Of a stretch of DNA of 37,627 nucleotides, positions 110 to 5,996 are shown piece after piece. A program made the translations under genes and the position numbers. Under the pieces are notes generated by a model. That model saw only the letters and a program-made list of their open reading frames with translations. It did no database searches and was not told where the DNA came from. The stretch's first letter is position 1. Each line of letters opens with the position of its first letter. The DNA comes from Rhodospirillales bacterium (GTDB lineage: Bacteria; Pseudomonadota; Alphaproteobacteria; Rhodospirillales; JASLLV01): contig JASLLV010000004.1 of the NCBI GenBank assembly GCA_030746935.1, positions 1 through 37,627 of the forward strand. Direction: 5' to 3'.

Positions 110-186
110 TGGCGCGCCCGGGAGGACTCGAACCCCCAACCTCCTGATCCGTAGTCAGACGCTCTATCCAATTGAGCTACGGGCGC
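110..186 (-). tRNA. tRNA-Arg(ACG)
   Basis: The minus strand folds into a full cloverleaf. The 7-bp acceptor stem pairs GCGCCCG (186-180) with CGGGCGC (120-114). The D arm is GCTC/GAGC. The anticodon stem TCTGA/TCAGG closes a loop CTACGGA, giving anticodon ACG, which is normally modified to ICG and reads CGU/CGC/CGA. The T arm has a TTCGAGT loop. The discriminator is G and the terminal CCA is encoded (112-110). The gene is transcribed leftwards, away from the lipoprotein gene. No integrase or duplicated tRNA end is seen nearby, so there is no sign that it serves as an attachment site here. Confidence 0.97.
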
Positions 187-3950: not shown

Positions 3951-4817
3951 TCAGGCATCGCGCGCAGGCTCCGGCGCGACCGCCACGTTGTCGATGAGCC
4001 GGGTCGTCCCGAGACGGGCGGCGGCGAGCACGCGGGCCGGCCGCGCCGGGTATGCGGGCGGACCCAGGGTCTCGGCGTCGCGCACCGCGACGTAATCGAC
4101 GTTCGTGAAGCCCGCGTCCAGCAATGTCTGGCGGGCATCCGCGCAAGCCCTATCCGCATCGCCGCCGGCGCCGACCGTTCGCGCGACGTAGGTGATCGCG
4201 CGAAAGAGCCGGGGCGCACGTTTGCGTTCGGCGGGCGACAAATAGGCGTTGCGGGACGCGGCCGCGAGGCCGTCCGCTTCGCGCACCGTGGGTGCGGCCT
4301 CGATCGCAACCGGGATGTCGAGATCCGCGACCAGGCGCCGGATCACGACCAGCTGTTGATAGTCCTTTTCGCCGAAAAAAGCCGCGTCCGGCAGCGCCTT
4401 CATGAGAAGTTTGGTCACCACCGTGGCGATGCCCTCGAAAAATCCGGGCCGGAACGCGCCTTCGAGATCGTCTCCCAAAGCGTCGACCACGACGCGGGTC
4501 GCGAATCCGGGCCCGTAGACGTCGCCCACGTCAGGGGCGTAGAGGGCGTCCGCGCCCTCGGCTTCGAGGAGGGCGGCGTCGGCCGCCTCGTCGCGGGGGT
4601 AACGTGCGAGATCTTCGCTGGGCGCGAATTGCTTGGGGTTGACGAAGAGCGTTACGCAGGTACGCGTGGTCGCCGCGCGGCAAAGGCGCACCAGCGAGAG
4701 GTGCCCTTCGTGCAACGCGCCCATGGTTGGGACCAGGCCGACGCTTTCGCCGGCGCATCGCCAATCGCGGAGCTGCGCGCGTAGCTCTTCTGTGGTCCTG
4801 AGGATGGGAAGCGCCAT
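3951..4817 (-). CDS. panC: pantothenate synthetase
   Basis: This enzyme joins pantoate and beta-alanine with ATP to form pantothenate, the last step of vitamin B5 synthesis, in the cytoplasm. The 288-residue length is normal. The nucleotidyltransferase signature VPTMGALHEGH is at residues 29-39, followed by TLFVNPKQF, and FGEKDYQQLVVIRRL carries the ATP/pantoate-binding residues. Later come VREADGLAAASRN and YLSPAER. The start is ATG 4817; the open frame runs on to 5024 but only through the hairpin block, and family members start at this MALPILRT. No clear ribosome-binding site precedes it. It follows panB on the same strand but is separated from it by 327 bp of structured DNA. Confidence 0.96.
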   Translation of the reverse strand: MALPILRTTEELRAQLRDWRCAGESVGLVPTMGALHEGHLSLVRLCRAATTRTCVTLFVNPKQFAPSEDLARYPRDEAADAALLEAEGADALYAPDVGDVYGPGFATRVVVDALGDDLEGAFRPGFFEGIATVVTKLLMKALPDAAFFGEKDYQQLVVIRRLVADLDIPVAIEAAPTVREADGLAAASRNAYLSPAERKRAPRLFRAITYVARTVGAGGDADRACADARQTLLDAGFTNVDYVAVRDAETLGPPAYPARPARVLAAARLGTTRLIDNVAVAPEPARDA

Positions 4818-5118
4818 GGTTAGTCGTGAAAAAGTCCCTCGCCCTCGGCTCGGTGTACTTTTTCCCGGTGTGAATGCGGCCGAATCGGCCCTTGAGGCAG
4901 CTCCGCGGGCCGATTCGAGAGTCTTCCTCCAGCCACGTAATTCGGCGTGGCGGAAACATATTGCAAGGATTTGCGCCCTTCGTCTGCAAATCCTTGCGAA
5001 AGAGAGCAAGCGGAAGGCGGGCACCGGGCCGCCCCAAGCCCGCCTTCTTCATTGTAAAAATTGAAGAAAAGTACACTGAGCGTTCGCGAAGGACTTTTCT
5101 TCACGGTCAACACCATGG
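4814..5118. repeat. six-hairpin intergenic element between panB and panC, bounded by diverged inverted repeats
   Basis: Six successive inverted repeats fill this spacer. H1 pairs 4828-4835 with 4857-4864 (8 bp). H2 pairs 4881-4891 with 4907-4917 (11 bp). H3 pairs 4932-4937 with 4946-4951 (6 bp). H4 pairs 4963-4974 with 4986-4997 (12 bp). H5 pairs 5013-5022 with 5038-5047 (10 bp). H6 pairs 5062-5072 with 5093-5103 (11 bp). All stems are perfect and loops are 8-21 nt. The two ends, about 4814-4867 and 5056-5118, are also similar to each other in inverted orientation, each running from a CCATGG through a GGACTTTT-like segment to a GTAC(A/T)CTTTT-like segment. That layout fits a MITE-like or REP-like mobile repeat, or a structured leader RNA for panC. 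No coding function is supported. Confidence 0.75.
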
Positions 5119-5144
5119 CCCCGGCCGCCGGACGGCGACGCGCG

Positions 5145-5996
5145 TTAGGCGGAAGCGGCCCTGGGAACCTTGGGGCCGAAGAGATTCTCCGGCCCGGGGA
5201 ACCGTCTGGCGCGCACATCGTCCGCGTACGCTTCGGCCGCCGATTCGACCGACGCCCCGAGCTCCGCATAGCGGCGGACGAACCGCGGCGTAAAGTCGAG
5301 AAACAGGCCCATCAGGTCTTCAGTCACCAGGATCTGGCCGTCGCAGGCCGGCGATGCCCCGATCCCGATGGTGGGAACCGGAACCTCGTCGGTGATTCGC
5401 CGCGCCAAGGGCTCGACCGTGCTCTCGATCACGATGGCGAACGCGCCCGCGTCCGAGACGGCCTTGGCGTCGTCCATGATGCGGGCCGCGTCTTCGGGCG
5501 CGCGTCCTTGCGCCCGGTATCCGCCGGCCGTGTGGACCGACTGCGGCATTAGGCCGACGTGTCCGAGGACCGGAATTCCGCGGGCGGTGAGAAACGCAAT
5601 GGTCTCGGCCATTTCGGCGCCGCCCTCGAGCTTGATGCCGGCGCAGCCGGTTTCCGCCATGACGCGGGCCGCGTTGCGAAACGCGAGCGCCGGCGTTTCC
5701 TGATAGGTGCCGAACGGCATGTCCACGATCACGCACGAAAGCTCGGCTCCGCGCACGACCGCGCCGCCGTGGGCGATCATCGTCTCAAGCGTCACGGAAA
5801 GCGTGCTGGAATGGCCGTAGATCACCATCGCCAGCGAATCGCCCACCAGCAAAAGATCGACGTGGGAATCCAGAAGCTGCGCCATGGGCGTCGTGTAGGC
5901 GGTCAGGCACACCAGCGGAACGCCGCCCTTGCGCCCCCCAATCTCGGGCACGGTCGTCCTGTGTTTCCGATGCGGTCCGTACACGCACGGCTCCAT
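5145..5996 (-). CDS. panB: 3-methyl-2-oxobutanoate hydroxymethyltransferase
   Basis: PanB transfers a hydroxymethyl group from methylene-tetrahydrofolate to alpha-ketoisovalerate, giving ketopantoate for pantothenate synthesis. The 283-residue product has the TIM-barrel landmarks: [15 protein letters not shown] (25-39), the metal-binding VGDS (51-54), [25 protein letters not shown] (91-99), the [10 protein letters not shown] segment, [11 protein letters not shown], and [12 protein letters not shown]. The order and length match the family. It is the first gene of the minus-strand panB-panC pair. A candidate promoter lies at 6040-6068, about 45 bp upstream. The ribosome-binding site is weak (GGAA about 10 nt before the ATG). 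Confidence 0.96.

Follow-up and report, generated by a model that had tools for sequence, protein, structure and literature searches.

The spacer between panB and panC in this Rhodospirillales genome raises the question of whether a series of hairpins just before a gene has evolved to control that gene or has arrived there by other means. In the window (the whole stretch of 37,627 nucleotides that was analysed) both genes are on the minus strand, and positions 4828–5103 between them are filled by six perfect hairpins with stems of 8, 11, 6, 12, 10 and 11 bp and loops of 8–21 nt. The sequence-only reading had described these hairpins as lying head to tail, with stems of 6–12 bp, three of them of 11 bp or longer, and on re-measurement all of these values were recovered. 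We have compared the spacer with shuffled controls, with the corresponding locus of a congener and with related copies in other genomes.

Hairpins of the panB–panC spacer

The genes and hairpins are as follows.

3951–4817, minus strand: panC, pantoate--beta-alanine ligase (TIGR00018, 273.8 bits)
4828–4864: H1, left terminal hairpin; perfect part of the stem 8 bp, loop 21 nt
4881–4917, plus strand: H2, conserved-loop hairpin; 11-bp stem, 15-nt loop TTGAGGCAGCTCCGC; model R1, 41.8 bits; covariation
4932–4951: H3, inner hairpin; perfect part of the stem 6 bp, loop 8 nt
4963–4997: H4, inner hairpin with arms GCAAGGATTTGC/GCAAATCCTTGC; 12-bp stem, 11-nt loop; resembles the leader hairpin of ISRsp18-like insertion sequences (ISs)
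5012–5048, minus strand: H5, second conserved-loop hairpin, an inverted copy of H2; model R1, 46.4 bits; perfect part 5013–5047, with a 10-bp stem and a 15-nt loop
5062–5103: H6, right terminal hairpin; 11-bp stem, 20-nt loop
5145–5996, minus strand: panB, 3-methyl-2-oxobutanoate hydroxymethyltransferase (TIGR00222, 304.9 bits)

The order in this region had been judged to be far above chance, and the controls bear this out. Base-shuffled sequences contain about 1.0 non-overlapping hairpin with a stem of at least 6 bp (maximum of four in 300 shuffles), and stems of at least 11 bp, of which there are three in 4828–5103, are absent from all 300. The RNA fold of 4814–5118 has an energy of −151.5 kcal/mol, compared with −100.9 ± 5.4 for dinucleotide shuffles (z = −9.4); the opposite strand gives z = −8.6 against dinucleotide shuffles. 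In the minimum-energy fold H1 and H6 open and pair together as terminal inverted repeats, so that the region could adopt either six separate hairpins or a single long-closed multibranch fold.

A mobile element at the start of panC

The hairpins lie within an element with the following parts.

4813–4818: left target-site duplication GCCATG, assigned from the sequence and the 6-bp duplications of the family; five of its six bases match the right copy
4819–5111: very probable MITE of 293 bp between panB and panC, assigned from dispersed copies, target duplications in the family and the empty site in the congener (G001)
4819–4837, plus strand: left terminal repeat GTTAGTCGTGAAAAAGTCC, from the sequence and family comparison
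5091–5111, minus strand: right terminal repeat, GTTGACCGTGAAGAAAAGTCC when read inwards, from the sequence and family comparison
5112–5117: right target-site duplication ACCATG, from the sequence and the 6-bp duplications of the family
4820–5116, minus strand: 98-codon open frame running from the duplicated ATG through the whole element and closed by TAA, 2 nt short of the panC ATG; may be a chance feature

We are confident that the element is a non-autonomous MITE of the IS5-family ISRsp18-like group, inserted at the start of panC and most likely passive there. It carries no transposase gene, only short non-conserved frames, and its terminal inverted repeats are imperfect and 19–21 nt in length (family consensus GTCGGTCGTGAAAAAGTCC). 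The left duplication includes the panC start codon (4817–4815, minus strand). When the element and one duplication are removed from the window, the sequence aligns to the congener over 901 bp with 90% identity and two gap positions; if the element is retained, the alignment to the panB–panC junction of the congener breaks in two. The simplest reading is that insertion would have followed the split between the congener and the host lineage, precise loss in the congener being the alternative. The congener has a nearly full-length relative of the element.

The sequence-only reading had proposed a search for other copies, and these are present in the same genome and in related ones. In the host genome (G000) three contigs (C143, C159 and C163) carry short forms of about 175 bp, and a fourth (C192) has a partial match. 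Full-length relatives with 78–84% identity occur in two genomes of another family of the same order (G018 and G038). A DNA search of 317 genomes of the order gave relatives of the element in 25, and a covariance model built on a single hairpin of the element gave matches in 27 of the 317, representing 13 genera. Among GTDB contigs, a pattern scan picked out Magnetospirillum fulvum, M. moscoviense and several MAGs from Rhodospirillales and other Alphaproteobacteria; in M. fulvum there are 78 terminal sequences, equivalent to about 39 copies. Plasmids and phages gave no match to the element. The identity of the element across families (84%) is high compared with that of PanC (65% at the amino-acid level), which suggests that it may have moved between lineages.

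Target duplications are a property of the family. A flanking direct repeat of at least 6 nt is found in 49 of 80 distinct paired copies, against 5.7 expected when flanks are shuffled among copies. In 31 copies the duplication is exactly 6 bp, adjoins the terminal repeat and shows a preference for TANNTA. Of the 80 elements 26 lack IS-like ends on both sides, and 11 of those 26 still have direct repeats.

These observations bear on the roles that had been offered for the hairpins. A cis-acting structured RNA evolved to regulate panC, whether as a leader, a riboswitch or a processing array, would be in keeping with the very stable fold, the covarying stems described below and the location just before the gene. 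We nevertheless consider it highly improbable: panB–panC of the congener is without the element, copies with target duplications lie at many unrelated loci, and no Rfam family matches at the gathering score. Among the three suggested roles it is thus the mobile repeat with recombined hairpins that is upheld, by the dispersed copies, the 6-bp duplications and the empty site, whereas a dedicated panC-controlling RNA is contradicted by that empty site and by the unrelated loci. In the whole window, tRNA is the only match to Rfam 15 at the gathering score. A permissive search of 4780–5150 was also considered and gave sub-threshold matches only, to unrelated families. A tRNA-Arg (ACG) gene is located near the start of the window (110–186, minus strand).

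With respect to panC expression, a passive insertion is the most likely state of the MITE. No sigma-70-like promoter was found, and the one terminator-like match is at chance level. With the element, the transcript would gain about 290 nt of stable structure ahead of panC, and this may be processed by RNases or crossed by translating ribosomes; if the genes are co-transcribed, the hairpins would be in that transcript and an incidental effect on panC is possible. Since the 98-codon frame stops 2 nt before the panC ATG, a translational-coupling layout, ribosomes could cross the element by reinitiation. Among copies of the element this frame is not conserved; it may be due to chance, and we have set aside coupling through it as a supported reading.

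Two-hairpin modules and covarying stems

Two inverted modules, each consisting of a terminal hairpin and a conserved-loop hairpin, make up the body of the element and flank inner hairpins, which can be lost. In each half the terminal hairpin is followed, after 17–19 nt, by an 11-bp stem, free in sequence, that carries a 15-nt loop, TTGRGGCGGCYCNGC. The loop is kept across genera while the stem sequence is free, and a 3-bp mini-stem around GCGG inside the loop also covaries (GGG/CCC, GAG/CTC and AAG/CTT, with GAA/TTC in G569, a genome of another family of the class). The fetched loci contain 103 distinct contexts of this hairpin, which were deduplicated by exact sequence only, include paralogues and are consequently not independent events; 100 of them adjoin a terminal hairpin, which is lost or absent in L214 and a few others. 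The hairpin faces inward from the adjoining terminal hairpin in 99 of the 103 (three of the 99 having a terminal hairpin on both sides), with a spacing of 17–19 nt in 94 of the 99.

The inner hairpins H3 and H4 are variable in sequence and sometimes missing. At one orthologous site G038 has a long element (L002, 1501–1793) and G018 a short one (L030, 1429–1610) from which the central hairpins are missing, so that loss (or exchange) of inner hairpins can occur in place. Two copies with 329-bp cores (L021 and L027) have an extra, very G+C-rich block (GGGGGTCGCGGGGGCGCCCCCCG...) inserted in the H2 loop, which may be another sign of modular growth. In the A/T-rich genome G569 (L202, 1380–1800) the terminal-hairpin core and the conserved loop are the same and the stem is entirely different, which suggests that the element may have spread beyond the order.

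Covariation of the stems, which the sequence-only reading had put forward as a check in homologous panB–panC spacers, is pronounced across copies of the element. For the six local hairpins in 15 long copies, 34 pairs are changed on both sides (16.0 ± 2.4 when shuffled) and there are 85 double-change cells (22.5 ± 3.8 when shuffled). None of 500 shuffles reaches the observed number of pairs or cells, and sliding the partners abolishes the signal. Of the three outcomes that the sequence-only reading had named as jointly counting against it (folding like that of shuffled sequence, an absence of further copies, and stems that do not covary), none was observed. Over all helices there are 16 G-U cells against 84 double Watson–Crick changes, and G-U occupies one of 330 cells in the outer stems of 30 conserved-loop hairpins, a set picked for complementarity and in which the percentage paired is biased for that reason. 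Because the covariation is Watson–Crick and almost without G-U, the arms are probably kept matched at the DNA level.

How this matching arises may be considered in terms of template switching, the marks of which are arm homogenisation and spacer inversion (PMC8604942, PMC8794818). Likenesses to both are present here. At an orthologous insertion (L017/L024) several neighbouring H4 stem positions differ on both arms, equivalent to the multi-base compensatory arm changes of template-switch hairpins, and in L016 the loop of H4 nearly matches the reverse complement of its usual sequence (ACGAAGA compared with TCTTCTT). The published cases concern RNA genes and yeast coding genes (PMC8794818, PMC8604942), whereas here we are dealing with a mobile element, in which no inversion of the H2 and H5 loops was seen. 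Template switching within each short inverted repeat might copy one arm onto the other, folding might be selected on both strands, or both processes could contribute; both-strand selection would also suppress G-U, so the two are not separated by these data. The family provides a natural test of whether DNA template switching can give rise to compensatory change, which is commonly accepted as proof of a functional RNA, and the test material includes matched Watson–Crick changes at one orthologous insertion.

The conserved loop and the fixed orientation go beyond what template switching alone explains. In the conserved-loop hairpins the sequence of the loop, the length of the stem and the orientation are additionally constrained, and conserved loops on free stems constitute a separate, testable sign of constraint. 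It is conceivable, if unlikely, that the element is a MITE by descent in which these hairpins are functional folded nucleic acid (single-stranded DNA or RNA) to which a host or transposon protein binds and which selection maintains, with template switching secondary. The conservation of the loop across genera, the covarying mini-stem, the regular spacing and the inward orientation would all fit, as would the local pairing of the terminal hairpin in elements without IS-like ends also. The near absence of G-U from the outer stems is unlike RNA selected on one strand, the contexts include paralogues and there is no match to a known family. The more specific proposal, that the inward-facing hairpin with loop TTGRGGCGGCYCNGC, set 17–19 nt from the terminal hairpin, is a putative recognition element for such a protein on folded single-stranded DNA or RNA, is in our view rather doubtful. 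If true, a DDE-type MITE family would retain a structured nucleic-acid signal across many genera of the order.

A likely IS partner and comparison with known systems

Comparison of the ends points to an IS5-family (ISRsp18-like) transposase as the likely mobiliser of the MITE. A search with ends of type GTCGGYCGTGAA gave ISs of about 1.5 kb in two genomes (G107 and G108), each IS with a gene for an IS5-family transposase (NF033578, 505.6 bits; PF05598 and PF01609). The same ends and 6-bp duplications recur in annotated ISRsp18-like elements from Sinorhizobium and in relatives from elsewhere in the class; the duplications of the IS5-family ISs include CATATA, GATTTA, TATCAA, TCATTG and TAAATA. 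The most MITE-like IS end (L177, GTCCGACCTGAAAAAGTCC) agrees at 16 of 19 positions. The ISRsp18-like ISs (NF033578) thus have in common with the MITE the terminal repeat GTCG(G/T)(C/T)CGTGAA(G/A)AA and a 6-bp target duplication. They differ in being about 1.5 kb in length with a transposase gene, which the MITE lacks, and the MITE has extra hairpins missing from the IS ends. A leader hairpin is also present in most of these ISs, at a distance of about 65 bp from the left end and with arms of the TTGCARG type; its likeness to H4 is suggestive of descent of the MITE from such ISs. Three IS copies of the nearest relatives (L154, L155 and L161) show no target duplication.

We propose that transposase would be supplied in trans by an IS absent from the assembled genome, recognising both terminal repeats, and that insertion at the panC start would have copied 6 bp. 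An ISRsp18-like transposase was not found at E 1e-20 in the host genome, which is 83% complete, or in most of the element-rich genomes searched, the assemblies of which are incomplete; with no such transposase found, present mobility in these genomes is doubtful. A partner IS in the same genome is no requirement for a MITE. The MITE and an ISRsp18-like transposase co-occur in G293. G320 has IS-like ends at contig ends, and at the start of its contig C28 (L146, 1–60) an IS-like terminus, GTCGGCCGTGAAGAATTCCCAAG, abuts apparent MITE sequence as if the partner IS had inserted into a MITE. Long-spaced pairs of ends (L047, L050, L091 and L144) were considered as autonomous elements and rejected, since on inspection by eye they resemble ordinary host DNA between single hairpins and not an IS.

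The many intergenic copies of paired inverted hairpins recall REP/BIME-type repeats, which are moved by RAYT (Y1) transposases and have a like layout of short hairpins as inverted intergenic pairs. We attach almost no probability to such an origin and have rejected it. The RAYT domain (PF01797) is present in only three of 13 genomes tested and was not found in the copy-rich host genome, M. fulvum, G018, G038, G136 or G257, so RAYT genes are mostly absent and are lacking from the genomes richest in the element; the 6-bp target duplications and IS5-type (DDE-type) ends also distinguish the present family from REP/BIME.

What had the appearance of a panC regulator turns out, very probably, to be a mobile element, and for Magnetospirillum and its relatives there is now a MITE family that can be searched for and that has a likely IS partner. 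The family is apparently not yet described: no description was found in the open-access literature on Magnetospirillum MITEs and REPs or on ISRsp18, with ISfinder outside the search. Bacterial MITEs such as ERIC, Correia, QMITEs, RUP and BOX are short, non-autonomous and mostly intergenic, with terminal repeats, target duplications and stable stem-loop transcripts (PMC10969869), and the element at 4819–5111 has these general features in common with them. It differs from those families, as they are described, in its strict series of hairpins, its conserved loops and its free, covarying stems.
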